NCBI GenBank assembly: GCA_017503575.1
Contig: JAFVSV010000027.1
Location: forward strand, 1-54,230
Direction of reading: 5' to 3'
DNA: 54,230 nt
Source of the DNA: Alistipes sp.
Lineage (GTDB): Bacteria; Bacteroidota; Bacteroidia; Bacteroidales; Rikenellaceae
Shown here piece after piece: positions 37,672-54,230 of the stretch. How positions within the stretch are numbered: position 1 is the first letter of the stretch; every line of letters begins with the position of its first letter. Below the pieces are notes generated by a model. It saw nothing but the letters and a program-made list of their open reading frames with translations, did not search any database and was not told where the DNA came from. A program made the position numbers and the translations under genes.

Positions 37672-38525
37672 TGGCCACACGACGCGAGATATTCAACGAG
37701 CTGACCACAGCGGCCATGGAGTGCTACGCCGCAGCAGAGGCACGCCAGATTGCCGAGATGATCATAACCACCAAGGGCGGCATCACGCGCAACGACCTTA
37801 TAGTAGAGCCCACAAAAGAGCTCATCATAGACGAGCTTGCGAGCATCAAAGAGCAGCTCAAAACGTGGCGCCCCGTGCAATACATATTGGGTAGCGCCGA
37901 TTTTATGGATATGAGCCTCGAGGTGAACGAGGCGGTGCTCATTCCACGCCCCGAGACCGAGGAGTTGGTATTATGGGTAGCAGAAGCTTCACACGAAGGG
38001 GCTACGATACTCGACGCCTGCACGGGTTCAGGCTGTATAGCCATAGCACTCGCACGCACAATCCGCGATAGCCGCGTCTACGCCTTTGACCTCTACGACA
38101 GTGCGATAGAGACAGCCAAGCGCAATGTCGAACGCTATGCGCCGCAGGTCAACATACGCAAGGGTGATGCCCTCGCCGACTTCTCCGAGCAATTTACCGA
38201 GAGGTTTGATGCAATAGTCTCCAACCCACCATATATACCGATTAGTGACAGCGCCATGATGCGCCCCAACGTCACCGCACATGAGCCTCACGAGGCGCTA
38301 TTTGTCGACGACAACGACCCGCTACTCTTCTACCGCGCCATAGCACGCACAGCACGCAAGATGCTCACCGCGGATGGCGCACTCTACTTCGAGATATACG
38401 AGACCCTTGGCACAGAGATGTGCGACATGTTGCGTAGCGAGGGGTATAGAGATATTACCCTCCGCGAGGACTTCAGAGGTAAACCACGAATGATATGCGC
38501 AAGAGTGAGTTCGATAGCGAGATGA
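37671..38525 (+). CDS. prmC: Release factor glutamine methyltransferase
   Basis: PrmC methylates the Gln of the GGQ motif in release factors. The 284-residue protein has an N-terminal helical domain and ends of the family pattern PVQYILGSADFMDMSLEV. IPRPETEELV and the SAM site ILDACTGSGCIAIALA precede the catalytic VSNPPYIPISD. It overlaps the aroC stop by one base (TAATG), so translation is likely coupled. Its own stop overlaps recX. Confidence 0.95.
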   Translation: MATRREIFNELTTAAMECYAAAEARQIAEMIITTKGGITRNDLIVEPTKELIIDELASIKEQLKTWRPVQYILGSADFMDMSLEVNEAVLIPRPETEELVLWVAEASHEGATILDACTGSGCIAIALARTIRDSRVYAFDLYDSAIETAKRNVERYAPQVNIRKGDALADFSEQFTERFDAIVSNPPYIPISDSAMMRPNVTAHEPHEALFVDDNDPLLFYRAIARTARKMLTADGALYFEIYETLGTEMCDMLRSEGYRDITLREDFRGKPRMICARVSSIAR

Positions 38526-39019
38526 CGCCCGCTCCCCGCGAGCGTAAGACGAAGAGTGCCCAGCAGGCACTCCAAGCACTTATGCGTCTATGTTCGCGTG
38601 CAGAGAAGTCTACGGGTGATGCCATGCGACTGATGCGTACATGGGGCGTGCCCGAGGCGGAGCGCCAAGGCGTTGTCGACACACTCATCGCACAACGCTT
38701 CATATCGAACCGCCGCTATGCCGAGGCGTATGCTCGCGAGAAGTCGTCGCTTGCTGGCTGGGGGCCCAAGAAGATAGCCATGCAACTAAGAGCCAAGGGC
38801 GTTGAGCGCGAGATAATTACGGAGGTGATTAGTCAATATGACTACGACACGCACCGCGAGCGTCTCACCGAGCGTCTACGACGCAAGCTACGCACAACAA
38901 AGGCCGCGTCGGAGTATGAACTGCGAGGCAAGCTATTGCGTTATGCTCTATCCTTGGGTTATGATTACGATACCGCCATGGCGAGCATCGAGAGTATAGA
39001 GACCTCAACAGAGCCATAG
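38522..39019 (+). CDS. recX: Regulatory protein RecX
   Basis: RecX modulates RecA filaments. The ATG at 38522 overlaps the prmC stop (ATGA) and gives 165 residues; an ATG nine codons earlier lies in the prmC frame. The family pattern is clear: ALMRLCSRAEKSTGDAMRLM, then DTLIAQRFISNRRYAEAYAR, GWGPKKIAMQLRAKGV, and a C-terminal third repeat ending YDYDTAMASIESIE. The last 77 bases before the final six codons are duplicated exactly at 45007-45083, which implies an insertion at this gene's end. Confidence 0.9.
   Translation: MTPAPRERKTKSAQQALQALMRLCSRAEKSTGDAMRLMRTWGVPEAERQGVVDTLIAQRFISNRRYAEAYAREKSSLAGWGPKKIAMQLRAKGVEREIITEVISQYDYDTHRERLTERLRRKLRTTKAASEYELRGKLLRYALSLGYDYDTAMASIESIETSTEP
38923..38999 (+). 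repeat. Left copy of 77-bp direct repeat (recX 3' end)
   Basis: This 77-base sequence is identical to 45007-45083 in the same orientation, checked base by base. Here it encodes residues near the C-terminus of RecX (RGKLLRYALSLGYDYDTAM and following). Confidence 0.97.
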
Positions 39020-39058
39020 AGATGCCAACCGATGGAGGCATGTTTACCACAGCCCGAA

Positions 39059-39981
39059 CTATTTGATGACTTGATACACAAGCACCGAAGAGAAGCTACC
39101 GCTATCATGCACATCTACCGACACACAGAATCGACCCTCACATGTAGGCTGTATGGTCATAGTCATCTTACCATCGTCACCCACACTCCACTCATCATGC
39201 TGTATCTGGCCGCCGTCCTCAATAATAGCCCATGTCTTATCCTCACCTCTACCCTTGGGATAGAAGCTAAAGGTATATGCGCATCCTACTTTCAGCTTAT
39301 AGTGCATAGGGATGTTGTCAATAGTTAGGCAGCCACCCATGCTATTGCTTATGATAGCGAGGGATTTCACATCATGCTCTGTAATAAGCCTTACCAACTC
39401 TTTCTCATCGACACCTGCGGCCTTCCACTCTGTCCACAATAGATGCTCCACCCCTTAACCATATCCCGTGGGTAGGCCTCTCGTATGACGTTTTGCTCCT
39501 CTATTGTAGGCTTAGCGATGTTGTACTCGGCAACCTTTTTCCAATTATTGCCTCCATTCGCATCTCGTACGACCAAGCTTAGTTTACGAGAGGAGCCACT
39601 ATCGTTACGAGAGGTACCTTTTACAATATATGACTCTATACCAATGGCACGCGATAATTGGTAGAATAACTCACAGTAGGCCTGACATACGCCCCTGCGA
39701 TTATCAAAACAGAACCCAGGGTCGTCAATAGTGTATGTAGTATCGAACGCTATATTAGTACATATCCACTCATAGAGAGTCTTCACCTTATCATAATCGC
39801 CCTCGCACCACATAGTGATATTCTCGGCGCGTATTCTAAAGTCATCCTCCTTATACGCAACATATTTTATTCTCTTCTTGGGTTCCTGTGTGAGAGATGT
39901 ATCGTTGGCAACAACAGCCTCGCTTGCCGCAATCATACCGACCAAGGCGAGTGAAATTAGGGTTTTGTGTATAGTTCGCAT
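39059..39981 (-). pseudogene. Transglutaminase-like secreted protein, frameshifted
   Basis: A signal peptide (MRTIHKTLISLALVGMIAAS) is followed by a transglutaminase-like domain: DKVKTLYEWICTNIAFD, then the catalytic-Cys motif RRGVCQAYCELFYQL. After about residue 175 the frame breaks at a minus-strand G run (39451-39454). The second frame continues EHLLWTEWKAAGVDEKELV, then a beta domain ending VSVDVHDSGSFSSVLV. Adding one G joins both into about 307 residues. It is either a real pseudogene or a sequencing error. It lies in the suspected 6-kb insertion. Confidence 0.65.
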
Positions 39982-40267
39982 AGATATAGAAGTTAAACTC
40001 AATCTACCATCAAAGAGAGTTTATTCCGTATTGTTCTATCAAAAATTATTGATTTCACAAATTTCACATCCGCGGATTGCCATGAGGCAGAGGCTATATG
40101 TTATCGTGCGCAGGAACACGCATGGTATTCTAATACTCCCGACAGAGCTATTGTGCCGCACTATGATAGATTACACAGCACGAAACACTCTATATATGCA
40201 AAAGGAACGGCGATACGACGCCTAACTCTTATCAATATGATATGGATTGAATTAAAAAAATAGATTT
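39982..40267. other. Divergent intergenic gap, nothing recognised
   Basis: This 286-base stretch separates the transglutaminase-like gene from the zinc-ribbon gene. I found no full TTTG/TAnnTTTG promoter and no gene. An open frame from 40084 has no recognisable protein. Confidence 0.4.
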
Positions 40268-41341
40268 ATGGAAAACGAAGTTATAATTAGATGTAAGTCG
40301 TGCGGTGTTGCTTTGAAGAAGTACACTCCCATGTGCCCACATTGCGGTAGAGAGGTGAAGTTCGAGCGTCACTGGATTGTGACAGCTGGACTATGGTTGG
40401 GCATCATAGTGAAATGTCTAACCATCGGTCTCTACATAGCTATTGTTGGCTGGGGTGTAGGGCCATTCTTGGATATATTTACGGAGGAGATTGGAGGCAA
40501 GGTCGTATTCTCTTGCTTAATAATTGGAGAGGGTTTAGCTATCGCCGGACTGGTTAGGAAGTTGCAGTGGAAGAGAGGGGCTGTGCTAATGATACCCCAC
40601 GCTATGGCATTAGGACTACTAATGTTACAGGTTGGGGCTGCACTATTTGGAGACTTTGCCTTTGTTGGATTTTTATTGATACTCCCTGTAATACTTATCC
40701 AAACCAAACCCTACGAGCTACTACTAAATGTTAAGAAGGATGGTGTTTCATGCTCGCAAATATTAACGTTTATTCATGGTGATGACTCTACGACGAAGGA
40801 CACCTACAAACTCACCCTTATGAAGGTGGGAAGATGCCAGGGGTGCAAATTTGCTAAAACACCTCTATACACAAAGTGCGACGAATGCAGAAAGAGCGTG
40901 AAATTTAAGCGTCACTGGGTATCTACATTAGGGTTGTGGCTCTTGATTATCATGAAGTGTATCCTGATTGGCCTATGCGTGGGTATCACATTCTCACATA
41001 TTAGACCCGATATCGCATATATGATTGATGGAACGGAGCGTGCCTTTGCATGTTTGGGCGTGAGCATATCCTCGTTGATTGGAATTATTGGATACATCAA
41101 GCTATTGATGCGCCGAGACGGATCGCAGCTTATTGCTTTCGACATCATCGCTTCGAGCATCCTGTTAATACTGATATTCCCGATCTATTCGATTGGCATT
41201 ATCGGACAGTGCATCCTGTTAATTACGCTTGTTGGTATTCAATATGCACCCCTTGCACTCATACTATACGCCAAGCGAGATGGTCTAACATTTTATGAGC
41301 AGTTGGTATTTCGCAAAGGTCACGAATTGGATATTGAGTAG
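40268..41341 (+). CDS. Tandemly duplicated zinc-ribbon membrane protein
   Basis: The 357-residue protein has two similar halves. Each begins with a zinc ribbon: Cys 9, 12, 23, 26 (CKSCG and CPHCG) and Cys 190, 193, 204, 207 (CQGC and CDEC). Each continues with a nearly shared block VKFERHWIVTAGLWLGIIVK or VKFKRHWVSTLGLWLLIIMK and then about three membrane helices. Total predicted helices are about six. The two ribbons are cytoplasmic by the positive-inside rule. I know no named family for the duplicated architecture. It stands alone between pseudogenes in the suspected insertion. Confidence 0.78.
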   Translation: MENEVIIRCKSCGVALKKYTPMCPHCGREVKFERHWIVTAGLWLGIIVKCLTIGLYIAIVGWGVGPFLDIFTEEIGGKVVFSCLIIGEGLAIAGLVRKLQWKRGAVLMIPHAMALGLLMLQVGAALFGDFAFVGFLLILPVILIQTKPYELLLNVKKDGVSCSQILTFIHGDDSTTKDTYKLTLMKVGRCQGCKFAKTPLYTKCDECRKSVKFKRHWVSTLGLWLLIIMKCILIGLCVGITFSHIRPDIAYMIDGTERAFACLGVSISSLIGIIGYIKLLMRRDGSQLIAFDIIASSILLILIFPIYSIGIIGQCILLITLVGIQYAPLALILYAKRDGLTFYEQLVFRKGHELDIE

Positions 41342-41392
41342 CAATACAGAGGGTGGAGTTGCTGAACAAGGTAGACCAGCACAGACATTAGT

Positions 41393-41423
41393 GGGCAGGA
41401 GAGGCTTCACCCTCTTCCTGCCC
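41393..41423. terminator. Hairpin after the zinc-ribbon gene
   Basis: GGGCAGGAGAGG pairs with CCTCTTCCTGCCC with one bulged base, giving a strong GC stem between convergent reading frames. Neither side has a good T run, so it may be a weak or factor-dependent terminator. Confidence 0.5.
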
Positions 41424-41431
41424 TAAGTGAC

Positions 41432-41848
41432 TTACTCATTGCTAATCAGCATAGGCCAACCATCGACACCAAAGCCCCATAGATAATTACATTGGGGTGT
41501 ATTAGCTATGTTCCAAGTGGCGATTTGGGTATTCATCGCAGTGATTGCGTTCTCATTGTTCTCGGCGTCGCCCTTTTGCAAAGTGTAATAGCCATCAAGA
41601 GCCACAGAATATTCCATTCCGATTTTCCATACGCCATATTCAGCAGTACCACGCATCAACTCGCCCGAAATGTTGTTTGAAAGAGCAGTCGAGATAGTAC
41701 CCATATTGGCACACGCTACATACTCCGTATCAACACCACCATACGCACTGCCTATGCCATAGGTATAGATAGGCGTGATGAAGAAAGAGGTGCTACACTT
41801 GGCAAAAAAAGAGCGACATAACCCCAACAGAGATTGCTCGCACGTCAC
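41432..41848 (-). pseudogene. Fragment of a surface protein (C-terminal part)
   Basis: The open frame of up to 138 codons has no signal peptide and no clean start. Its C-terminus (GGVDTEYVACANMGTIST, then QIATWNIANTPQCNYLWGF and DGWPMLISNE) resembles the last repeat of GLUG-type or similar bacterial surface proteins, where 'CN..W..G...YPTL' ends the chain. I read it as the remnant of a longer gene. It overlaps a possible regulator remnant on the other strand. Confidence 0.4.
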
Positions 41849-41943
41849 ACATGTCGCAGATAAAATTCTTCAAATTCTGCCGTAAGCACTTCGATTGCAC
41901 CGCCACAGAGCTTATCGCAAAGGCACAAAGCGAAGGTAGATAA
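41808..41943 (+). pseudogene. Remnant of an AraC-type regulator C-terminus
   Basis: Reading plus strand to the stop at 41941-41943 gives KSDITPTEIARTSHMSQIKF then KFCRKHFDCTATELI. This resembles the second helix-turn-helix and end of AraC-family regulators (F...FK..FG.TP.E). No N-terminal part or intact start is present. It abuts the sulfatase gene. Confidence 0.35.
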
Positions 41944-41970
41944 GAGGTACTAATTACTCATATAGACAAC

Positions 41971-43500
41971 CTACTTGTCCAAGCGAGGCATTGTGACCTT
42001 GAAGTGGGGACTCTCGACATGTTGAGAGTAGGCAATAGCAATCATTTGACGCAGGATGTCGGGGTACTTGTCTGCCAAGTCGTTATCTTCGTGAAGGTCA
42101 TAGGCGAGATTATAGAGATGAGGCACGCCACCTTTAGACACCATCTTCCAATCACCCATACGCACAGCCACCTGGTCGGTCTCCTCGAACTCCCAATACA
42201 AAAAATCGTGTTTTGGTTGCTCTCCCTCGCCAAGGAGCGTGGGAGCAAACGACACACCATCGAAGTAGTCGACCTCAACATTTGGGTTTCTATATCGCTC
42301 CGAGTAGTCATCAACACCCGCCAACTCCGAAAGCGTAGGCATCATATCGTAGAATGCCAAGATATGGTCGTTCACCGCTCCCGCCTCAACCGTTCGTGGC
42401 CACCACGCAATAAACGGCACTCGAACGCCACCCTCGTGTGTCTCTCGTTTGATGCCGCGAAGCTCAGCATTAAAGCCAAAGAACTCGGGGTCGGCGCCAC
42501 CCTCGGCGTGTGGGCCATTATCACTTGTAAAGATGACTAACGTATTCTCCGCAAGGCCATTAGCACGCAACACATCCAATATCTCACCAACATAGATATC
42601 AAGGCGCGAGACCATGGCGGCAAACTGAGCGTGCGCATCGCGCGAGGTATTATATCGTGACCAAGGATTTGTCTCCCAATCGCTATCCGACGACTTAAAC
42701 TTATCCCTATAATGTTGCAGCAACGAGTCTTGAGGCTGTACCAACTCAGCATGGGGCAGGGTGTAGGTGAAGATGCCGAAGAATGGCTTATCTCCCTGCT
42801 GACTGCGCAACCACTCCATAGCCCTGCGATGAATCATATCGGCAGAGTACTGCGTACGATTCGTATACCCCTCACCCTTTTGCGGATATCGGATATTCTC
42901 CTTAAGGACAACACGCACGAGCGTAGTGTCGCCCTCAAGCAGACTATAACGGTTCAAGAAGTTGGGATAATAGAGGTGGGCTTGATACTGGCATATATAG
43001 CCGAAGAACTCATCTATACCTCGCTTGTCGGGCGTAGAGTGTGAGCCCTCATAGCCACCAGCCCACTTGCCAAACATAGCTGTGGCATAACCATTATCGC
43101 GCATTATCTCGGGAAGGATAATATGCTCGCTGGAATAGGGATGTTGACCCACACGAGAGTAATCCTCATTCTCGCCATAGCGGACCATAGGCACATCACG
43201 CCAATACTCCTTATTACCCCTCACCTCCGTATGCCCCGAGTGCTGACCTGTCATAAACGATGCACGCGATGGTGCACTCACAGGGCTACCTGCATACGCC
43301 TGCGTAAAGCGCATACCCTCACGCGCCATACGGTCGATATTCGGTGTCTCGATAAGCTGCTGGCCATAGCAGCCCACATCGTTATAGCCGAGGTCGTCGC
43401 ACATAATGATAATGACATTTGGCTGCTCACCATAAGCGTAGAGTGGTGGTAGAAACATCCCACCACACAAAAGAGAAGTATATAATCGTCTTTTCCTCAT
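41971..43500 (-). CDS. Ser-type sulfatase, secreted
   Basis: The 509-residue S1-family sulfatase has a signal region (about 24 residues) followed by the metal site MCDDLGYNDVGCYG. The formylglycine site is S75-A-P-S-R79 (PVSAPSRASFMTG). The residue to be oxidised is Ser, so it needs the anaerobic maturase encoded directly upstream. FGKWAGGYEG replaces the common GKWHLG. DNGPHAEGG carries further metal or sulfate contacts. A QAHLYYPNFLNRYS segment marks a particular subfamily that I cannot number with certainty. It probably removes sulfate from host or dietary glycans; the substrate is unknown. It starts five bases after the maturase gene. Confidence 0.93.
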   Translation of the reverse strand: MRKRRLYTSLLCGGMFLPPLYAYGEQPNVIIIMCDDLGYNDVGCYGQQLIETPNIDRMAREGMRFTQAYAGSPVSAPSRASFMTGQHSGHTEVRGNKEYWRDVPMVRYGENEDYSRVGQHPYSSEHIILPEIMRDNGYATAMFGKWAGGYEGSHSTPDKRGIDEFFGYICQYQAHLYYPNFLNRYSLLEGDTTLVRVVLKENIRYPQKGEGYTNRTQYSADMIHRRAMEWLRSQQGDKPFFGIFTYTLPHAELVQPQDSLLQHYRDKFKSSDSDWETNPWSRYNTSRDAHAQFAAMVSRLDIYVGEILDVLRANGLAENTLVIFTSDNGPHAEGGADPEFFGFNAELRGIKRETHEGGVRVPFIAWWPRTVEAGAVNDHILAFYDMMPTLSELAGVDDYSERYRNPNVEVDYFDGVSFAPTLLGEGEQPKHDFLYWEFEETDQVAVRMGDWKMVSKGGVPHLYNLAYDLHEDNDLADKYPDILRQMIAIAYSQHVESPHFKVTMPRLDK

Positions 43501-43505
43501 AACAT

Positions 43506-44729
43506 CTACTTTTTACACCTCATAATATTTGCTGGTGGCATACCCTGCTCCAACTGCCCACGCATATAGTCCATCGCCTCGTGAGCATGCTCAAAAAAGG
43601 CGTAATAACCCTCACACAAATAGTTGAGCCCCGCTTCACCATCCTCGGTCACAATAAACCTATTACGCGGGCACTCGCCATGACACGCAAACTCATACCT
43701 GCACTCTCGGCACTTTTGAGGTAGCGAGGTGTACTTATTTGCGCCGAACGCTCGTTGCTTCGCGCCATACATCATATCTATAAGCAAGCTATCCCTAAGG
43801 TTACCGAGCCTATACTCTGGGAATACAAAGTGGTCGCACGAATAGAGATCGCCATTATGCTCTATGACTGCCGAGTGTCCGCAATATTTCGACATGGTGC
43901 ATACCCCAGCGGGTGCACCCACCCAATTAGCAAGTGTCGTATCGAAGAGCTGAACGAAGAACTCTCCAACATCGTTATGCACCCACTCATCGAAGATAGC
44001 GCACAAGAACCTCCCCCACTGCTCTGCCGTTATGGAGTATGGCGTAACCTCGCCACCCGACTCACCAGCGTGCATTAGCCTCGGTACACCGCCCTCCACA
44101 GATATGCGCTCCACGACGGGTGTAAACTGCAGGTAGCGGCACGCCAACTCATCACGAAAGAAACGATAGAATTCCAACGGACGCTCCACATTCGCAGCAT
44201 TCACCGTGGCCATAGCATTCCACTCCACGCGGTATTTTTCAAGCAGCCGTATGCCACGGATAACATCTCGAAAGCTACTCTCGCCATTGCGGGTTCTGCG
44301 CATCGCATCGTGCATCTCGCACGCGCCATCTATCGAGACACCCACCAAGAAATTGTGTTTCCCAAGAAACTTGCACCACTCCTCATCCAAAAGTGTTGCA
44401 TTTGTCTGTATGCAGTTGTCCACCCTGCGCCCATCGGCATAGCGTCGTTGCAACTCGACAGCTCGCTCATAGAACGATATAGGGCGTAACAGAGGCTCAC
44501 CGCCATGCCATATAAAGAGCACATCAGATGTGGTCTGCGAGTGAATATACTCTTTAACGAATAGTTCGAGCATATCATCACTCATCATCTGCGAGGAGCC
44601 GCCACATTGTTCGCTCTTTTCGAGATAATAGCAATAGTCACATCGCAGGTTACACTTCGCACCCACCGGCTTCGCCATCACATACATTGGACGGCCATAC
44701 CCGACCTCTATCTCCTCGCTTTTACTCAT
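43506..44729 (-). CDS. Anaerobic sulfatase-maturating enzyme (radical SAM)
   Basis: This anSME oxidises the sulfatase Ser or Cys to formylglycine without oxygen. The 407-residue protein has the radical-SAM cluster motif C26-x3-C30-x2-C33 (KCNLRCDYCYYLE). GGEPLL follows the first barrel strand. C-terminal SPASM cysteines (CTMSKYCGH, YSCDHFVFPEYRLG, CRECRYEFACHGECPRN) bind two more clusters. The length fits the family. It lies upstream of the sulfatase it presumably matures. Its promoter is so close that the transcript may be leaderless. Confidence 0.95.
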   Translation of the reverse strand: MSKSEEIEVGYGRPMYVMAKPVGAKCNLRCDYCYYLEKSEQCGGSSQMMSDDMLELFVKEYIHSQTTSDVLFIWHGGEPLLRPISFYERAVELQRRYADGRRVDNCIQTNATLLDEEWCKFLGKHNFLVGVSIDGACEMHDAMRRTRNGESSFRDVIRGIRLLEKYRVEWNAMATVNAANVERPLEFYRFFRDELACRYLQFTPVVERISVEGGVPRLMHAGESGGEVTPYSITAEQWGRFLCAIFDEWVHNDVGEFFVQLFDTTLANWVGAPAGVCTMSKYCGHSAVIEHNGDLYSCDHFVFPEYRLGNLRDSLLIDMMYGAKQRAFGANKYTSLPQKCRECRYEFACHGECPRNRFIVTEDGEAGLNYLCEGYYAFFEHAHEAMDYMRGQLEQGMPPANIMRCKK

Positions 44730-44733
44730 AGTG

Positions 44734-44765
44734 CAAATTTACAAAAAAATCAAAACAAACTGCAA
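44734..44765 (-). promoter_or_regulatory. Promoter of the maturase-sulfatase pair
   Basis: On the minus strand TTG (44763-44765) lies 21 bases upstream of TAAATTTG (44734-44741). The -7 element ends only four bases before the ATG at 44729. The transcript would then begin at or next to the start codon. Confidence 0.62.
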
Positions 44766-44796
44766 TTATTCGCCATTTATCGACAATTGAGCTAAA

Positions 44797-44943
44797 GTGT
44801 TCCTTTGCGGAATTGAGTTACCAACAATAACAGGACTGCATCTGACTCGCCCGATTATATCGGATTGCGAAAGTCGTAACCCGCAGAATTTGGTCGGATC
44901 TGTGCCTAATGTCCCGACATCAGCTAACATCTTGATACAGAAA
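44797..44943. other. Stretch without a recognised gene, edge of insertion
   Basis: No credible gene is seen. An 83-codon frame at 44797-45048 runs through the terminator and the tRNA-end fragment and is rejected. On the minus strand this is the sequence beyond an orphan terminator. Confidence 0.45.
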
Positions 44944-44979
44944 AGAGGCCGAATAAAAAGTGATTTTTGGTCGGCCTCT
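44944..44979 (-). terminator. Orphan terminator after a tRNA 3'-end fragment
   Basis: Arms AGAGGCCGA and TCGGCCTCT form a nine-base-pair stem followed on the minus strand by TTTTCTG. Directly upstream on that strand is a 12-base copy of a tRNA-Arg 3' end. The arrangement equals tRNA gene end plus terminator, but no tRNA body is present. Confidence 0.75.
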
Positions 44980-44997
44980 ATATTTTTTAGTTCTTTC

Positions 44998-45009
44998 GTG
45001 ATTCCGGCG
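44998..45009 (-). other. Orphan tRNA-Arg 3' end (att-like)
   Basis: On the minus strand CGCCGGAATCAC equals the last 11 bases of tRNA-Arg(TCT) plus one. It touches the start of the 77-bp recX repeat (three bases overlap). Such tRNA-end copies usually mark attachment sites of integrating elements. Confidence 0.55.
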
Positions 45010-45083
45010 AGGCAAGCTATTGCGTTATGCTCTATCCTTGGGTTATGATTACGATACCGCCATGGCGAGCATCGAGAGTATAG
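45007..45083 (+). repeat. Right copy of 77-bp direct repeat (recX 3' end)
   Basis: Identical to 38923-38999. After the repeat the recX frame would read ESI-APII and then stop at TAA, followed by a terminator-like hairpin at 45105. This looks like an alternative or original end of recX, now separated from the gene by about 6 kb. Confidence 0.95.
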
Positions 45084-45104
45084 CCCCTATCATATAAAAG
45101 ACAC

Positions 45105-45136
45105 AACGCACCTCCGATTCCCATCGGTGATGCGTT
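45105..45136. terminator. Hairpin beyond the duplicated recX end
   Basis: AACGCACCTCCGAT pairs with ATCGGTGATGCGTT with one mismatch and one wobble. The minus side is followed by TCTTTTATAT. It may be the original terminator of the lptB-recX run or the terminator of the large lipoprotein gene. Confidence 0.6.
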
Positions 45137-45213
45137 GCCATTATCGTTTACTGAAAGCCGTATATTAACTCCATACCTACATGCTCGGAGCATGTGTATC
45201 GAGTCTCCTTTTT

Positions 45214-45269: not shown

Positions 45270-48200
45270 TTACTCAGTAATTGTAAGTGTAATCTTGAAT
45301 GAGGTAGTCTCTTGCTGCCAGATATGTCCAACATACACGTTAACGTTAAGCTCGACAGTCTTAGTCTCAGTCAACGCGTTTTTATTGTTGTAAACCAACT
45401 TACCTGTAGCCTCCTCGAAGGTGAGAACTGACTGGAGCTGCTCAGGAATAGTGAGTTTGTAAACAGGATTCTCCAATCCATAGATATCAGCTGCACCATA
45501 AGTGGTTGCGAAGCCGTTAGTATCGTCACCCTCTGTCCAGTTAGCATTGCTCCATGCTACCTCTATGTCGGTATCCTTTACAAGCTCACCGTGCTGGATA
45601 AGGTCGAAGCCACGAACATCCTGAAGTGTCAACTGGTTCATCAGGTAGTAAGTGTATGTCTTAGCCTCACTATTCGAAATAATGATGTTAAGATTCTTCG
45701 ACTGGAGGTGACCAACAAGGTTATACTGCTTCACATAGTAGTTAGCATACTTCTGTCCAGCATCGAAGTTTGTAGGAAGAACAGTCTTCACACCGTTGGT
45801 GTTCTCGAGAACAAGTGTACCCTTAACGCGTACAGATGCATCGCGACCCTGGTAGAAGAGTATGTTCGAACCATCCTGGAAGTAGATGCCAGCACCAGGT
45901 GCCTGAGCGAAGCTGAATGTGCTGGTCAAGCCGAGAGCTGCAAGATTCTCAATAGGAGCACCATTGTTGTCAACAACGTTGAATGCATAATCCATGTTGA
46001 TGCTTACATAAGCGTTGTAGAGCGACTGCGACTCCTCAGGATTGTTCAGATATGTAGCCTTAGGTACAGAGAAGTACTCATCGTCAATGTTGTATACATA
46101 GTACTCAACGTCATCATAGTTGTAAGTAGTCCAATCAACATTGATAGTCTTGTTAACGATGATTGTCTGACCATACCATGTTGTGTAAGTAGACTTGTAA
46201 ACAACCGACTCAGGTGTTGCGTCGAAGTCAACATAGCTGTAGTTTGCAGTTGCTGCAGCACCCTCGGTAGCATCAGCGCTAACTACCAACTTAGTGTTGT
46301 CCATAGTAACACCATTAGCAAGGTCAACCTGTGCACGCATAGCGTTATCTACGAAGATAGCATCCAAGTACTCAGCAGCGGTAGTGAAGCTATCCTTATC
46401 AACATTACCAACAACGTCGTAAATCTCGCTCAACGAACCAGCAGCCTTAGAGAATACAAGGTCCTTAACAAGCATTACAGTGTCGTCTGCAAGAGTGATC
46501 TCAACAGTCTCGAGGCCGATGTTCAAAGTCTTAGTGAACTTAACCTGCTGACCGTACCAGAGAGTTACCTCCTTAACGTAGTCAATCTTCTCAGGAATCT
46601 CAGTTGCAAAGTCATCGATGTTGTAAATAGAGCTGATCTCTGTACCATCGATGTCCATCATGGTGTTAGTGTAATCAGCACCATTTGCCTGGTTAGAATC
46701 AACAGTGTAACGATTAGTTACGAAGATATCCTCAAGGAACTCATCAGCATCCTTAGTAGTGTTAACGTTGCTTGCTACCAATGCATCGAACAAAGGCTCC
46801 AACGAATCAGTGTAAACACTCTCATTAGTGAACTCCTTAGTAAGCATCCATGCTACCTCATCGAGAGCGATTACGATAGGCTCACGACCACGGTCAACAG
46901 TGTTAACGGTAACAGATATAGTTACATCAATGCTATCCAACTCGTAGAGAGCGGTAATCTCGTAAGTCTTATCCCACTCGAAGCCTACAAGCTCAATTGT
47001 AGGTGCAGCGTTGGTTCCAGCGAACTTAACGGCTACGTTATTAACAGCTACACCACCGGTTGCAACGGTAATAGCAGGATTCTCAACAAGAAGGTCTGCG
47101 TAAGTTACGTCATCAGGAAGAGTGCTTGTCGCAATTGTAAGCGCGTCGATAGAGTTAGTAGGCTCACTACCTGCATCGCTCTTAGCATCCTGCTCATAGT
47201 TCCAAACGATAGCGACATCCTCCATTGCAATCTCGCGAGTAATCTTAGTTACGCGTACATTTGCAGATGCAGTAAGCTCAGTGCCGCAAACGTCATACTT
47301 GTACGTTACAGTCTCGATATCGCCTACAGCAAGCTTAGTAGCCTCCTTAAGGCTAACCGATGCCATATTCAAATAGGGGTCGGTGTTGTCCAATGTGTTC
47401 TTGAATACGTTACGGTTGGTATCGCCATCGTGAGTTGTAACAACATAGGTAGGATCATACTTAGTTACGTTGATAGCATAACCATCGTCGATCATATCAG
47501 CAACAGTGAACTCACCCTCGCCATTAACAGTGAACTGGAAGTCATGCTCGGGCAAAATCTCAACTACCTTCTCAAGATCGGTATACTCAATAGTGTAGTC
47601 GTTAGCAACCTGTGCGTTAACCAAAGCAACCTCAATTACATCAGCCTGCTTAGCAGGAACTACATTTGTGTAAACAGTTGAAAGGTTAGCAGTCTCAGTA
47701 TTCAACACGAGTGATACGCCATACTCCATTTTACCATTGTAGAAGTCTTCACCGAGATTACGAGCATCGAAAGTAACGTAAAGACGACCATTGAGATCAC
47801 CCTCAACACCTACGATATTGAACTCAGGCTCAACACCACGAGTGCGCAAGCCCTCAAGCTCGAATGAAAGCTGATCAACTGTGCCCTCAACAGCGGAAGC
47901 GCTTGCAATAACTGCAGCACACTCAGCGGGGTATACCTGATAAACCATAGTAGAGCGGCCCTCTACGATAGTCTGACCAAGCATTGCATAGTTAATGGTA
48001 CCCTTGCCATCAGAGTACTCAGGAACGAATACGATAGACTGAACACGGTTCAAAATCTTTGCGATATCACCCTTAAGACCCTCGATAACCTTGTCGTTAG
48101 AGGCTATATACTCGTCAATCTTCTGCTCGATAGTAGTAGCATAAGCTGATAGCTGATCAAGCTTAGTTCTGATATCAGCGAGCTCGCGCTCCAACGCCTT

Positions 48201-49559
48201 CTGAAGCTCATCAGTGTAAGCCTTAGCAGCATCCTCAGCATCCTTAGCTGCCTTAAGAGCAGCTGCAAGAGCAGCATCGATAGCACCATCAAGACGTGCA
48301 ATCTGCTCTCCCATTTGCTTCTGGAAGTCAGCCAATGTTGTCTCCAACTCAGCCAAGTCCTGAGTAAGAGCATCGATGGTTACCTGCATCTGTGCAATGT
48401 TGGTCTGAATCTTGGCGATAAGACCCTCAGCTGCACCTACACGCTGATCAAGAGCTGCAAGGCTCTCCTCAAGGGCAACCAACCAAGCTGCGTGCTGATC
48501 TAAAGTCTGAAGAATAGCAGCATCCTGAGCCTGAAGTGATTTGATGTCCTGCTCATGCTGAGTCGAAAGCTGGTTGATAAGGGCAGTATTTTTAGCGATC
48601 TCGCCAAATGCCTTCTCGAACTGCTCGTTAACGATTCTCTGGTAGTCTATGAAACTGTTCTCAAGGTTAGTTACCTTAGTATCAACAGTCTCGATAAGTT
48701 CCCTAATTGCCTTGTCAGCCTCAGCAAGGAGATCAAGTTGATCCTGTGTGTACTGTGCCAACTCCTCAAGACGGCCATTGAGGTTATTAATGAGAAGAGT
48801 CTGATTGTCATGCAAAGTGTACAACTCCTCAACATTACCCTCAAGTGTCTTAATAGCAGCCTCAGCAGCATCTACACGACCCTTAAGTGTCTCGATAGCA
48901 GTGTTTGTTGCAATAGTATACGCATTGAACTCATTAGTAAGATCAAGAAGATCTGTCTGAAGGCCCTCGATAGCCTCAGCATTCTCAGCGATAGCCTCAG
49001 CATTCTCAGCGATAGCCTCAGCGTTGAGTGTGATTGAAGCCACTGCTGTCTCGATGTCCTTAGCAAGCTCAGCATCTACATCCTTAAGAGCCTCGATTGC
49101 CTCCTCGTTAGCCGAGATGCGCGCAACAGCATCGGCAATCTTAGCGTTCACCTCGGCAACCTGCTTAGCAATCTCGTCGTAAACAGCCTTGATATCAGCA
49201 TCGTGCTTACCCTCGAGCTCAGCAAGCTGACCCTTAAGAGCCTCAAGCTCAACTACTGCATCAGCAATAGCATCCTTAGCCTCCTGGATTGCCTCGTCAT
49301 GCTCAGCATCGGTAGCTACTAAAGCATCGATTGCTGCCTTATTCTCAGCAATCTTTGCATTACCGGCCTCGATAGCATCCTCGAGAGCCTGCTTCAAGCT
49401 CTGCAAGTCAACCTTCAAGGGATTGATCTCACCCTCGCGAATATCGTCGATCTGCTGCTGCATATCGCGAATATCCGCATCGTAGTCAGTACATCCGGTT
49501 GAATAGAGCATGGCTCCAACCAGGAGCATACTCAGAAATTTAGATAAGTACTTCATCAT
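45270..49559 (-). CDS. Giant coiled-coil lipoprotein
   Basis: The 1429-residue lipoprotein has lipobox STGC (Cys 23) followed by TDYDADIRDMQQQIDD, like DUF4988-type openings. Residues 25-515 are almost wholly coiled coil, rich in Ala, Glu, Ile and Leu with heptads such as EAIAENA. From about 520 (IVFVPEYSDGKGTINYA) the chain turns into beta-sandwich repeats that include three 'W.. I.VTVN'-type units and a C-terminal domain (QTTSFKITLTITE end). A 490-residue rod could span tens of nanometres and project the beta domains from the cell. It lies 49 bases after an OmpA-like gene in one operon. Start ATG 49559 or 49556. Function is unknown. Confidence 0.8.
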   Translation of the reverse strand: MMKYLSKFLSMLLVGAMLYSTGCTDYDADIRDMQQQIDDIREGEINPLKVDLQSLKQALEDAIEAGNAKIAENKAAIDALVATDAEHDEAIQEAKDAIADAVVELEALKGQLAELEGKHDADIKAVYDEIAKQVAEVNAKIADAVARISANEEAIEALKDVDAELAKDIETAVASITLNAEAIAENAEAIAENAEAIEGLQTDLLDLTNEFNAYTIATNTAIETLKGRVDAAEAAIKTLEGNVEELYTLHDNQTLLINNLNGRLEELAQYTQDQLDLLAEADKAIRELIETVDTKVTNLENSFIDYQRIVNEQFEKAFGEIAKNTALINQLSTQHEQDIKSLQAQDAAILQTLDQHAAWLVALEESLAALDQRVGAAEGLIAKIQTNIAQMQVTIDALTQDLAELETTLADFQKQMGEQIARLDGAIDAALAAALKAAKDAEDAAKAYTDELQKALERELADIRTKLDQLSAYATTIEQKIDEYIASNDKVIEGLKGDIAKILNRVQSIVFVPEYSDGKGTINYAMLGQTIVEGRSTMVYQVYPAECAAVIASASAVEGTVDQLSFELEGLRTRGVEPEFNIVGVEGDLNGRLYVTFDARNLGEDFYNGKMEYGVSLVLNTETANLSTVYTNVVPAKQADVIEVALVNAQVANDYTIEYTDLEKVVEILPEHDFQFTVNGEGEFTVADMIDDGYAINVTKYDPTYVVTTHDGDTNRNVFKNTLDNTDPYLNMASVSLKEATKLAVGDIETVTYKYDVCGTELTASANVRVTKITREIAMEDVAIVWNYEQDAKSDAGSEPTNSIDALTIATSTLPDDVTYADLLVENPAITVATGGVAVNNVAVKFAGTNAAPTIELVGFEWDKTYEITALYELDSIDVTISVTVNTVDRGREPIVIALDEVAWMLTKEFTNESVYTDSLEPLFDALVASNVNTTKDADEFLEDIFVTNRYTVDSNQANGADYTNTMMDIDGTEISSIYNIDDFATEIPEKIDYVKEVTLWYGQQVKFTKTLNIGLETVEITLADDTVMLVKDLVFSKAAGSLSEIYDVVGNVDKDSFTTAAEYLDAIFVDNAMRAQVDLANGVTMDNTKLVVSADATEGAAATANYSYVDFDATPESVVYKSTYTTWYGQTIIVNKTINVDWTTYNYDDVEYYVYNIDDEYFSVPKATYLNNPEESQSLYNAYVSINMDYAFNVVDNNGAPIENLAALGLTSTFSFAQAPGAGIYFQDGSNILFYQGRDASVRVKGTLVLENTNGVKTVLPTNFDAGQKYANYYVKQYNLVGHLQSKNLNIIISNSEAKTYTYYLMNQLTLQDVRGFDLIQHGELVKDTDIEVAWSNANWTEGDDTNGFATTYGAADIYGLENPVYKLTIPEQLQSVLTFEEATGKLVYNNKNALTETKTVELNVNVYVGHIWQQETTSFKITLTITE
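48969..49025 (-). repeat. 21-bp tandem repeat within coiled-coil region
   Basis: Two full and one partial copy of a 21-base unit (start GATAGCCTCAGC) encode seven-residue steps AIAENAE. The unit equals one heptad, so copy-number change would lengthen the rod by exactly one turn pair without a frameshift. Confidence 0.9.
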
Positions 49560-49608: not shown

Positions 49609-50811
49609 TTACTCGAGAGTGCAGATAACAACTCGGTTGTCAGCCGGATTATCAAAGGGCTGCTCCGTGTCGCCAACGAACGATGTCGTAATGCGCTCCT
49701 GGGCTACGCCTGCCTCGGCCAACGCGCGTGTTACTGCCTCGGCGCGACGCTCCGATAGTCGGAGGTTGCCCGCTGCTGTACCCGTCTCGCGGTCTGCATA
49801 ACCTACGATTACTACGCTGTAGTCCTCATTCTCGACAAGCCACTGAGCCATACGCTCAATCTTCACAGCCTCGTCACGACGAATGTTAGCCGAGCCGATA
49901 GTGAAACGGATGTTCTCAGAGTGCTCCTTGATTACCGCAGCACGCTCTGCCAAACGTTGAGCCTCAAGCTCCTGCTGTTGACGAATCTGCTCCTCCTCGC
50001 GACGTACTCGTTCCTCCTCCTGACGTGCGAGCTCCTCCTGCTGTTGCTGTGCAGCTATGCGTGCAGCCTCCGCCTCAGCCAAGCGCTGCTCAGCGATGCG
50101 AATAGCCTCCTGCTGTGCGGCCCATACCTTAGACTCGCGATGCTTTGGGCCGAAGCTATACGACACACCGGCCAACATGTTGAGCTGCCAGTCTGCGTTG
50201 TCGGCACGCTTAGAGTTGAACTTGTCCGAGAGAACGTTGGCGTTAGCCTCTAAATTAATAAGAACGCGCTCGCCTACGCGGAAGTCCAAGCCAAGTCCCA
50301 TGCGACCTGCAACAAAAACCTTCTTATCCCACAAATACTCCATGCCGATAGACCAAGCGGGGCGACCGGCTGCGATAGATGTGGCCTCATTATTGTTAAA
50401 GCCGTAATTTAGGCCTACACCGACCAAAGCGTAGAAACCTACGACGCGCTTATGGTTGTAACCGCCAAAAAGCGATACGAGGTCAAGCTTGTAGTCAGCG
50501 TTGAGCTGTAGGAAGTTGAATGTGTACAAGCTCTCGGGCGAAACAATCGCACCCTTGCCCTGCCAACCTCCTAAACCAAAACGCACACCCATGGCGTGGT
50601 GGAAGCGATAGTTAGTCGACAAATAGAGTGCTGGCGAGATCAAATCGCCTGAAGTCGAAGACTCTCCAATGGTGTAACCAACACCACCTTGAAGTTGTAA
50701 ATCCCAATGAGGGCGGAATTCAACGCTCTCATCAGCCTCGCTCTGCTGTGCGCTTACCGATGTAACACACAGAAATAGAGCTAATAACGGAATAAGTTTT
50801 TTAATTACCAT
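49609..50811 (-). CDS. OmpA-family protein with N-terminal barrel and coiled-coil linker
   Basis: The 400-residue protein has a signal ending VSAQ. Residues 30-230 form an outer-membrane beta-barrel-like domain (GVGYTIGESSTSGD at the start, MLAGVSYSFGP at the end). A charged coiled coil (RIAEQRLAEAEAARIAAQQQ and further) links to an OmpA C-terminal domain with IRFTIGSANIRRDE, VIVGYADRETG and NLRLSERRAEAV. The Asp and Arg of the peptidoglycan-binding site are retained. It probably anchors the outer membrane to the cell wall. It is first in the operon with the giant coiled-coil lipoprotein. Confidence 0.92.
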   Translation of the reverse strand: MVIKKLIPLLALFLCVTSVSAQQSEADESVEFRPHWDLQLQGGVGYTIGESSTSGDLISPALYLSTNYRFHHAMGVRFGLGGWQGKGAIVSPESLYTFNFLQLNADYKLDLVSLFGGYNHKRVVGFYALVGVGLNYGFNNNEATSIAAGRPAWSIGMEYLWDKKVFVAGRMGLGLDFRVGERVLINLEANANVLSDKFNSKRADNADWQLNMLAGVSYSFGPKHRESKVWAAQQEAIRIAEQRLAEAEAARIAAQQQQEELARQEEERVRREEEQIRQQQELEAQRLAERAAVIKEHSENIRFTIGSANIRRDEAVKIERMAQWLVENEDYSVVIVGYADRETGTAAGNLRLSERRAEAVTRALAEAGVAQERITTSFVGDTEQPFDNPADNRVVICTLE

Positions 50812-51433: not shown

Positions 51434-51588
51434 CTAGATGTATTATTTGTTGTAAAATGTACAACACTATGTGTAACCGACAACATAATATATTGTATTT
51501 ACCTCGAAAATATGCTTTCTAATAAGCCGTCGTAGTAGATAGTTTTGGCACCATGCACGATAATATTCACAACGATAGACCTAAAAAT

Positions 51589-51619
51589 TTTGCAATTCGA
51601 TATATTTTGCTTACTTTTG
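51589..51619 (+). promoter_or_regulatory. Strong promoter upstream of tRNA-Arg(TCT)
   Basis: TTTG (51589-51592) is followed after 19 bases by TACTTTTG (51612-51619), an exact consensus. Transcription would start near 51626, about 240 bases before the tRNA, through a non-coding leader with short direct repeats. Confidence 0.75.
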
Positions 51620-51707
51620 CACCGCAAAAGCCTAAGTAGTGGAACAATTAACTGCAACGCAGGGACTGCTGGCAAAGCATCATAACGCCATCAAGAGCCG
51701 AGGTAAC

Positions 51708-51867: not shown

Positions 51868-51941
51868 GGTTCCGTAGCTCAGCTGGATAGAGCAACAGCC
51901 TTCTAAGCTGTGGGTCGTGGGTTCGAATCCCGCCGGAATCA
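51868..51941 (+). tRNA. tRNA-Arg (TCT)
   Basis: The acceptor GGTTCCG pairs with CGGAATC (one wobble). The anticodon arm ACAGC/GCTGT has loop CTTCTAA, giving TCT. The T arm is GTGGG TTCGAAT CCCGC, and the discriminator is A51941. No CCA is encoded. The 3' 13 bases recur as orphan copies at 53080 and, shortened and inverted, at 44998. Confidence 0.94.
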
Positions 51942-51957
51942 CAAGGAGAGTGAGAGC

Positions 51958-52082
51958 AATAACAAACAAGGTGTTACTCGTAGAGTCCAAAAACAAAAGA
52001 GAGGTGACTTCAAGTTTAATCGAAAGTCATCTCTCTTTTGTTTTTGCAGTGTGCGCAGCACAATCACCTTGTTTTGTTATTG
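51958..52082 (+). terminator. Nested long hairpin after tRNA-Arg
   Basis: Inner arms 51988-52010 and 52024-52046 form a 23-base-pair stem with one wobble and end in TTTTGTTTTTG. Outer arms near 51958-51974 and 52065-52082 extend the structure (one extra T). The inner hairpin is a very strong terminator of the tRNA transcript. Confidence 0.85.
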
Positions 52083-52151
52083 CCGAGCCGACGCAGTGAA
52101 AGACGAGCGAAGCGAAGTCAATCACATTGTAAGTAATGCTGGCGCTCCCTA

Positions 52152-52208
52152 TGCCGAGGACTCCAAGGGAAAGACGCAGTAAAGCGCAGCGGCTGCGTCA
52201 ATCCTGCC
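52152..52208 (+). repeat. Distal part of repeated tRNA-flank element, copy 1
   Basis: TGCCGAGGACTCCAAGGG and the following AATCCTGCC also occur, slightly changed, at 53214-53281. Both copies lie downstream of a tRNA-Arg 3' end with terminator, so the whole unit of about 200-280 bases appears duplicated. Confidence 0.6.
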
Positions 52209-52501
52209 ACGCCAATAACTGAAAACTATTTTATTATAAAAGTTCATAGGTTCACTTCCTGATTTTTTGTCTTATCGTTGCTCAATAGAATAGATACAAC
52301 CATTTTAAGGTTGCTATAAAAAATGGCGCAGTGGTGGATAGTTGTCGAACTGTCAATTGGTGTACTCGTGTTAAGCGAAATTTGTAAGATATTTACTCGA
52401 AATAAGTGGTAGTAGTATAACAAATTATATCGTGTAGAGATTTACTATAAGATATACAAATAGTCGCATAAAAACTTTCGATATAAATTCCGCTTATAAA
52501 A
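52209..52501. other. AT-rich gap without a recognised gene
   Basis: About 290 bases between the tRNA-flank repeat and the rhodanese promoter. I see no open frame, hairpin or RNA that I can name. Confidence 0.45.
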
Positions 52502-52533
52502 TTTGCCAGTCCGATAGTGTAATGTTATCTTTG
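52502..52533 (+). promoter_or_regulatory. Promoter of the rhodanese gene
   Basis: TTTG (52502-52505) and TATCTTTG (52526-52533) are separated by 20 bases, an exact consensus. The leader is about 24 bases to the ATG at 52564. Confidence 0.82.
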
Positions 52534-52563
52534 CAGAGAGTAAAACCAATAAAAGATAAAACT

Positions 52564-52941
52564 ATGAAGACTATTTTGTATATTCTATTTGCGGCAACAA
52601 TGATGGTTGGATGCAATAACTCAAAGGCAACGAAGGGTTTTGATTCGGTAGATGCAACACGCTTTGCCGAGGTGATTGAGAACGAGCAGGTGCAAATTAT
52701 CGACACGCGAACACCTGAGGAGTTCAGCGAGGGACATATACCTGGTGCAGTGAACATTGACATCGATAGCGAGGAGTTCGCAGCAAAGGTTGCCGAGTTG
52801 GATAAGTCGCGCCCCGTAGCGGTATATTGTCGTGGTGGTCGCAGAAGCAAGGAGGCTGCCAAGCATATGGTAAGTTGCGGTTTGGAGGTTACGGAGCTCT
52901 CGGACGGCATTATGTCGTGGAAAGGCGCGGTAGAGAAGTAG
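52564..52941 (+). CDS. Rhodanese-like lipoprotein
   Basis: The 125-residue protein has a lipoprotein signal (lipobox MVGC, Cys 17) and one rhodanese domain. The strand QIIDTRTPEEFSEGHIPGAVN is characteristic. The active-site loop is C89-R-G-G-R-R-S, so the sulfur-carrying Cys is present. The start at 52564 is chosen over an in-frame ATG 14 codons upstream that lies before the likely transcription start. It is probably a periplasmic sulfur carrier or thiol-handling protein; the acceptor is unknown. It is flanked by tRNA-end elements. Confidence 0.88.
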   Translation: MKTILYILFAATMMVGCNNSKATKGFDSVDATRFAEVIENEQVQIIDTRTPEEFSEGHIPGAVNIDIDSEEFAAKVAELDKSRPVAVYCRGGRRSKEAAKHMVSCGLEVTELSDGIMSWKGAVEK

Positions 52942-53079
52942 TTAGTGTGTATGGTCATGCATACTGCGCGTCAGGCGTATTATGCAGGGAGTGTTGGGTT
53001 GTGAGTGTCGTGTGAGTGCGCATTGCTAAATTGGTATAACGCATTGAATGGTTGAAACAAGCTACTCCATCCATCTTCA

Positions 53080-53092
53080 CCGCCGGAATCAC
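53080..53092 (+). other. Second orphan tRNA-Arg 3' end (att-like)
   Basis: CCGCCGGAATCAC is identical to 51930-51942, the 3' end of tRNA-Arg(TCT) plus one base, but no tRNA body precedes it. It is followed by a terminator, as in a real tRNA gene. The segment between the two, about 1.1 kb, holds only the rhodanese gene. There is no gene in 52942-53281. Confidence 0.6.
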
Positions 53093-53137
53093 GAGCGCAG
53101 AGAGCGCGCAAGCAGCACCGCAGGTGCAAAACGAGAA

Positions 53138-53180: not shown

Positions 53181-53213
53181 GTGTATTGCCACTGGCAATG
53201 CTTGTGCTCTCTC

Positions 53214-53281
53214 TGCCGAGGATTCCAAGGGGAAGGCGTTAAGCGGAGCAGACCTTGGTCTGCGGAGTAGCCAATCCCGCC
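53214..53281 (+). repeat. Distal part of repeated tRNA-flank element, copy 2
   Basis: TGCCGAGGATTCCAAGGG and a final AATCCCGCC mirror the element at 52152-52208. The final bases resemble the T-stem region of tRNA-Arg (GAATCCCGCC), which suggests a second tRNA-derived junction at about 53272-53281. Confidence 0.55.
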
Positions 53282-54094
53282 TTAAAAATTATCTTCTATA
53301 TACTTTAATAACTTGGCTGCACTTGCATTTGATAAGTTCATACCTCCTCGTGGAGCCATTGCCAATCCATTTTCCAAGAGGTGTGGTAGCGACATCTTAT
53401 GCGTATGACTTTCGGACAACAGTCGAAGCTTTATGAAACGATTGTGTTCCTTTGCTGTTTCAAAGTCATTAACATCTACATAGAACTCTTTTTCTTTGTC
53501 AAAGTCGGGTTGATATGGGATATCGTGAGCCTCAACCATCAATTTGTATTTTATACAACTATCAGGGCTTGACGAATATATATAAACAATATCTCCCTTC
53601 TGTATCTTGTAATTTTGTGTCCAATATATCTCATTGTGTTTTTTCAGACAACCATCGACATCAAAGAACTTACTATTGGCTGGCAATAGCCAAACAAACG
53701 ATTGCCCTCGTGGAGTTGATGGCTTTTCCACACCCGTTTTATCACTTTTTCCAACTACTACTTGCTTAAAGACTTCTTCAATTTCAGCATCATCCAATAG
53801 TAGGGCCACCTCCTTAAAGATAGCAAGGGCCTCCTCGGGTGCGACATTGAAAAACTCTCTATTGTTGCGAATACGCAAATTTGTAAAACGCTCAATATAG
53901 TGATGAATTAGCTTCTCTGCCTCCGAATACTTCACTGTTTTCAAGGTTGCATAAATCTCAAATGGCAGAGGTACGGCAGTATTATCCAGTTCCTTAGAGC
54001 GGATGTCTACAGGGCGAGAACTTTTACCAATTTTAACCCAATCCTCCTTGAAACTTGGATTGGTAAGGATATATACATAGCCGGCTTCTTTCAT
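53282..54094 (-). CDS. GIY-YIG-type (T5orf172-like) / EVE-like fusion protein
   Basis: The 270-residue soluble protein begins with a GIY-YIG-superfamily pattern: YVYILTN (6-12), KIGKS (21-25), Arg 32, a mid-helix Glu (YSEAEKLIHHY) and NREFF (78-82). This fits the T5orf172/MUG113 branch. After a linker (residues 100-130), FVWLLPANSKFFDVDGCL, YWTQNYKIQKGDIVYIYSSS and the ending LLENGLAMAPRGGM resemble an EVE-type domain, a reader of modified bases. The domain names come from motif memory, not a search. The combination suggests a modification-dependent nuclease. The gene is alone, with its own promoter, beside a tRNA-end scar. Confidence 0.72.
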   Translation of the reverse strand: MKEAGYVYILTNPSFKEDWVKIGKSSRPVDIRSKELDNTAVPLPFEIYATLKTVKYSEAEKLIHHYIERFTNLRIRNNREFFNVAPEEALAIFKEVALLLDDAEIEEVFKQVVVGKSDKTGVEKPSTPRGQSFVWLLPANSKFFDVDGCLKKHNEIYWTQNYKIQKGDIVYIYSSSPDSCIKYKLMVEAHDIPYQPDFDKEKEFYVDVNDFETAKEHNRFIKLRLLSESHTHKMSLPHLLENGLAMAPRGGMNLSNASAAKLLKYIEDNF

Positions 54095-54147: not shown

Positions 54148-54230
54148 ATCTTTGCCTTTTGCAATCCGATAAAATCAGGTGAAATTCGATGCAATTCTCC
54201 TTGCCTGACAATTCCAATCCCAAACGAAGA

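Follow-up and report, generated by a model that had tools for sequence, protein, structure and literature searches.

The window analysed here, a 54,230-nt stretch of Alistipes sp. DNA (GenBank assembly GCA_017503575.1, contig JAFVSV010000027.1), is the entire contig C29 of a draft metagenome-assembled genome (MAG; 100 contigs, 1.82 Mb, 78% complete), and it raises the question why a piece of the end of its recX gene occurs twice, in direct orientation, on either side of 6 kb of other genes. The answer that we favour, with a probability of roughly 45%, is that homologous recombination within the recX end brought in a fragment collinear with the recX locus of a donor and thereby duplicated 77 bp. 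The features on which the argument turns are the following.

38495..39019, plus strand: recX, which holds repeat copy 1 and ends in ETSTEP and a stop codon (open reading frame, ORF; PF02631 RecX_HTH2, E 6.2e-14)
38923..38999, plus strand: repeat copy 1, inside recX (77/77 identity with copy 2)
39000..45006, no strand assigned: segment between the copies, read as the insert (bounded by both copies)
45007..45083, plus strand: repeat copy 2 (77/77 identity with copy 1)
45084..45137, plus strand: end of the copy-2 reading frame (TAA at 45095-45097) and a bidirectional hairpin at 45104-45137 (frame reading, folding)

An identical 77-base direct repeat with an offset of 6,084 had been reported in the first-pass annotation, and this was confirmed: all 77 bases of 38923-38999 match 45007-45083, the bases bordering the copies differ on both sides (T and G before, A and C after), and no third place turned up when the MAG was searched with the 77-mer. 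No exact repeat in the window is longer; the runner-up is a 34-base pair 21 bases apart, and the chance expectation of the 77-base pair is approximately 10^-37. As a control we collected exact repeat pairs of 30 bp or longer, with spacings above 500 bp, from 47 stretches of relatives (684,347 bases), the relatives being taken from genome collections with one genome per species. This gave 57 pairs, the 40 longest of which all came from three stretches, with what look like paralogous genes in two of them (L207 and L033) and a CRISPR-like array in the third (L205), and the other 17 pairs measured at most 47 bp. A 48-base piece of the repeat had no exact match in viral contigs. Zero differences in 77 positions set an upper 95% limit of about 3.9% on the divergence of the copies, compared with 15% between recX of the window and that of the closest relative by RecX (G055, 93%), which suggests that the duplication is a recent event, unless gene conversion has evened the copies out.

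The two copies lead into different sequence. Copy 1 had been described as the recX 3′ end, and it does lie inside recX (on which the NCBIfam RecX models score below their cut-offs), but it is not the extreme end of the gene, which continues for 20 more bases to ETSTEP and its stop codon; copy 1 then runs into a transglutaminase gene, and the fold 3′ of it is unremarkable (z -0.75). Copy 2 read in the recX frame ends in IESIAPII, followed by the TAA at 45095-45097 and the hairpin at 45104-45137, in agreement with the earlier suggestion of a possible recX end (ESI-APII, stop) with a hairpin behind it. This hairpin has z-scores of -3.45 on the plus and -4.52 on the minus strand, and stands before a convergent gene for a coiled-coil protein. 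Because a stop codon and a strong two-way hairpin follow it, copy 2 with its right flank looks like a complete and native recX end, so that gene end and terminator are kept 3′ of the second copy, as a homology-anchored import would leave them. The right flanks of both copies resemble recX ends, as if from two lineages, and what precedes copy 2 is unrelated sequence, itself preceded by an orphan hairpin. The G+C content drops from about 0.56 before the recX end to 0.42-0.52 behind it. The order of recX, copy, 6 kb, copy and downstream sequence makes the middle segment the likely insert, and this segment is surrounded by a duplicated piece of the gene that would have anchored it.

The first gene of the segment bears directly on its origin.

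39059..40002, minus strand: broken transglutaminase-like gene (PF01841, E 5.8e-11)

Its N-terminal part (39391-40002) and C-terminal part (39059-39451) lie in differing frames, the gene is about 0.5 kb shorter in its middle than its homologs, and both parts match single genes of relatives. A survey of 180 genus genomes with a 70-residue piece of the G094 homolog detected the gene in eight, the MAG itself included. In three of the seven other carriers (G050, G094 and G140) it stands directly behind recX in convergent orientation, and in the remaining four it is on another contig than recX; no second recX end was found within the 13-17 kb behind recX in the former three. The presence of this left-border gene beside recX in three other species without the repeat suggests a homology-driven import of a recX-collinear fragment.

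In such an import the donor would have been a strain or related species with the transglutaminase gene behind recX, and a piece of recX, broken off within the gene near codon 143, would have come in on the fragment. RecA-type homologous recombination in this shared piece would have integrated the fragment, by a single crossover if it had first been circularised, or else by a one-sided crossover whose far end was closed by an illegitimate join. The observed order of upstream recX, shared piece, insert, shared piece and old downstream sequence can result from both routes, and copy 1 would then end with the recX tail of the donor and run into the donor's neighbouring gene, with copy 2 as the cell's own tail with its stop codon and terminator. 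The donor, the circular or one-sided intermediate and the role of RecA are what we infer here; the 77-bp repeat is most likely a scar that needs no function, and the underlying process most likely ordinary recombination more than a new mobile element.

Several observations weigh against this import. The best scores for the transglutaminase parts were obtained in G114 (N-terminal part) and G153 (C-terminal part), where the gene lies elsewhere than recX, and the recX-adjacent homologs are not closer to the pieces in the window; these scores speak against part of the import and keep our probability at the level given above. None of the relatives examined shows the donor order in full, and in G055, the closest of them, neither arrangement occurs behind recX. 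The insert contains a decayed gene although the identical copies imply a recent event, and 77 bp is shorter than the duplications of 109-950 bp in the E. coli precedent (PMC3240628).

The sequence behind copy 2 enters the next alternative.

45270..49559, minus strand: large coiled-coil surface-type protein, convergent to recX and outside the repeat (ORF)
49609..50811, minus strand: OmpA-family protein, outside the repeat (NCBIfam profile match)

The coiled-coil protein has a 62% homolog in G055, approximately 195 kb from recX there, and a homolog of the OmpA-family gene adjoins the coiled-coil gene in both G055 and G020, the pair being on another contig than recX in the latter. This location away from recX, the adjacency of recX and the transglutaminase gene in three other species, and the decayed gene within the 6 kb, which suggests long residence, would all fit a resident order of recX, transglutaminase gene and 6-kb segment, with copy 2 as an ectopic 77-bp piece of recX that originated in the rearrangement bringing in the coiled-coil/OmpA side. 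Such a piece might stem from a tandem duplication with later deletions, or from filler DNA at the break. Taken as a whole we consider an ectopic copy doubtful, as it requires two breaks that preserve exactly the 77-bp piece, and leaves the stop codon and strong hairpin directly behind copy 2 unexplained.

Insertion into the end of recX, like that of integrating elements, had been proposed in the first-pass annotation. The direction of this proposal is probably right, given the order of the parts and the stop codon and hairpin behind copy 2, but the likeness to integrating elements found no positive support. In a site-specific integration the recX end would be the attachment site and the copies would be attL and attR, with the recombinase lost or acting in trans. 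An exact direct repeat of a gene end does border foreign-looking cargo, in the manner of attL and attR, and copy 2 restores a plausible recX end. Repeats of this length are known, such as the 83-bp target site of the integrative and conjugative element Tn5253 (PMC6079316), and the E. coli island H47, which has direct repeats and lacks a recombinase, is able to excise (PMC5426353). Against this, the six insert ORFs gave no recombinase or transposase match in Pfam, NCBIfam or PHROGs (intergenic parts were not scanned in six frames), so that the earlier remark that no integrase is visible was borne out, and there is no integrase gene among these ORFs. Elsewhere in the MAG, PF00589 matches three times, each time on a contig other than that of the window (this genome-wide search did not extend to serine recombinases or transposases). 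Matches to PF00589 are present in 71/71 genus genomes searched, presumably as XerC and XerD would give. In 56 stretches behind recX from relatives (one without downstream sequence, 41 with at least 12 kb), the recX end did not turn up a second time in direct orientation; three of them carry a 15-base match to the recX end in inverse orientation. The first gene of the insert adjoins recX in three species without the repeat, and a recombinase core site within the 77 bp was rejected, as the sole palindrome measures 10 bp (38974-38983) and the fold is ordinary (z 0.28). The literature consulted, including passages of PMC4961963 and PMC2647930, also contained no account of integration at the recX end in Bacteroidota. 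With these points taken together, site-specific integration is unlikely.

Since 77 is a usual k-mer size of assemblers, overlaps between the contig ends of the MAG were also tested; 102 ends were compared, of which 11 read N and were dropped, leaving 91. At two junctions, four pairs of ends share a terminal overlap of exactly 141 bases, and the final k of the assembler was therefore most likely 141. Other overlaps measured 85, 68 and 30 bases and none 77, the usual list of k values ending in 141 does not contain 77, and the single 77-base match between contig ends (C14 and C20) has offsets 0 and 9, with one side terminal, and lies inside a repeat family. The length of the repeat is thus not the k seen in the overlaps, and an assembler k-mer artefact was rejected as unlikely. 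That two strains differing behind recX were merged into one contig would suit a draft metagenome assembly of 100 contigs, the C14/C20 match and a repeat of fixed length back from a fork, a possible leftover of a k=77 graph, but the overlaps of 141, 85, 68 and 30, the final k that they indicate and the absence of 77 from the corresponding k list make such a chimera very improbable.

The rest of the segment contains the following features.

40268..41341, plus strand: zinc-ribbon membrane protein with an internal duplication (weak zinc-ribbon Pfam matches, below cut-off)
41432..41848, minus strand: frame with no match in Pfam, NCBIfam or PHROG
41971..43500, minus strand: sulfatase (PF00884, E 4.8e-56; 80-82% identity in G013 and G070)
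43506..44729, minus strand: anaerobic sulfatase maturase, radical SAM/SPASM (NF010308, 618 bits, cut-off 484)
44837..44944, no strand assigned: part of a dispersed repeat (86% match to C99:691-799; related block behind recX in G020)
44944..44979, plus strand: hairpin followed by T-rich sequence, with no plus-strand gene before it (fold of 44930-45006, z -2.79)

These ORFs and profile matches agree with the gene content first reported, namely two pseudogene-like genes, a duplicated zinc-ribbon protein, remnants and a sulfatase/maturase pair. Residues 189-247 of the zinc-ribbon protein match its own N-terminal DNA at 44%, and a single weak relative was found among 61 genomes, itself aside. The maturase is 74% identical in G013 and G070, and with the 80-82% of the sulfatase this exceeds the 43-59% identity of RecX, PrmC and AroC of G013 to those of the window, so that the pair has probably moved within the genus. 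In a short ORF of G020 (L190:7119-7507), residues 1-49 of a maturase homolog are fused to a stretch of a sulfatase homolog (residues 433-508), which looks like a deletion inside the same gene pair. A phage or plasmid origin was rejected, as a 6.16-kb query matched five plasmid and four phage records with at most 29% coverage and at most 71% identity, confined, among the matches listed, to the sulfatase and maturase genes; no paper linking Alistipes with sulfatase island transfer was found. Arms related to the hairpin at 44944..44979 occur at many places in the MAG. Positions 44837-44944 and 54158-54230 appear to be two pieces of one dispersed repeat, inside which the contig ends, and both parts adjoin in C99:691-836 and, behind recX, in G020 (L037:982-1102).

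Beyond the segment, the order of aroC, prmC and recX is kept in the relatives compared, as is that of aroA and lptB where covered, and the sequence behind recX varies. A scan of genome contigs for the locus gave 14 loci, none of the same species (own or very near records may be omitted). Among the first two or three tRNAs of each of the 56 stretches, tRNA-Arg(TCT) is on the same strand within 300 bp of recX in nine, on the same strand 1.4-6.7 kb behind it in seven more, and on the opposite strand 3.1 kb behind it in one.

51868..51942, plus strand: tRNA-Arg(TCT), close behind recX in several relatives

In the window this tRNA is preceded by a conserved block at 51583-51632; the conserved blocks at 51.6-51.9 kb were considered as a repeat family, which was rejected as they represent the tRNA-Arg and the sequence before it. 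Since many relatives have tRNA-Arg(TCT) close behind recX, the whole interruption from recX to the tRNA in the window appears to span about 12.5 kb, of which the 6 kb between the copies would be only one part and the coiled-coil and OmpA-family genes the other. The run reported earlier to break the housekeeping order thus does so, but extends further than was stated, up to the tRNA-Arg block.

Within this wider region, the OmpA/coiled-coil pair of G055 (L185:1-11820) follows two genes that by eye resemble rpoB and rpoC. The 13 bases at the 3′ end of the tRNA-Arg, CCGCCGGAATCAC, recur at 53080-53092 (window 51930-53107), and 53197-53238 repeats 52135-52176 at 83%, with a small gene (52564-52941) enclosed that is rhodanese-like by eye; these repeats may be an old duplication of the tRNA end. 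A T5orf172-domain protein is encoded at 53282-54094, near the contig end, and a homolog, judged by its start, is located behind recX and tRNA-Arg in G024. Other relatives have variable genes near recX (L198:1824-5288, L205:4073-10148, L304:2586-7786 and L302:12468-14516): G056 and G155 encode Cas9-like proteins there (RuvC_III and HNH_4 domains), G155 also has a CRISPR-like array, G090 has Cas1 and a pair of ORFs over which Cpf1/Cas12a domains are divided, and G160 has an N6_Mtase gene. The recX/tRNA-Arg region, with CRISPR-Cas, restriction or other variable genes in several relatives, might be a capture site of the genus for homology-anchored fragments, and the 6 kb a recombinase-less island able to leave and re-enter between recX ends via host enzymes, a combination that we regard as a long shot.

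If the import of a recX-collinear fragment is true, the locus is a clean natural case, and a recent one, of gene transfer between uncultured gut bacteria with no mobile element involved: the short stretch of gene end that they share serves as the anchor, and the duplicated tail of the gene is the mark left behind. Scars of this kind are open to confusion with attachment sites of unknown integrases, and two questions may discriminate between them: whether the first gene of the insert ordinarily adjoins the anchoring gene elsewhere, and which of the two copies has retained the native terminator.

Among known systems, integrative elements at gene 3′ ends share with this locus a direct repeat of the gene end at both borders, but here there is no integrase or mobility gene among the ORFs and no second example in the 56 relatives' stretches. 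Island H47 of E. coli is similarly small, located between direct repeats and devoid of its own recombinase; its repeats are imperfect (148 and 144 bp) and its excision was shown (PMC5426353), whereas the repeat described here is perfect and any excision would be hypothetical. Homology-facilitated illegitimate recombination has been proposed for Vibrio immunity-gene arrays, with displaced old genes (PMC5361080), and for small variable segments (PMC2884548), and these cases resemble the recX locus in that homology on one side anchors non-homologous DNA and partial old genes stay downstream. One-sided events usually delete recipient DNA (PMC3240628), whereas here a piece is duplicated. In the same E. 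coli study, 56 of 60 clones expected to be one-sided gave a polymerase chain reaction product typical of duplication, and sequencing of 14 clones showed that 109-950 bp of the homologous gene end had been duplicated, which was explained by single-crossover integration of recircularised DNA (PMC3240628). Those duplications followed laboratory conjugation, and ours is 77 bp, natural and with a putative intermediate, but in both the insert lies between direct copies of part of the homologous gene end, the duplication has one arbitrary border, and a recombinase is unnecessary.

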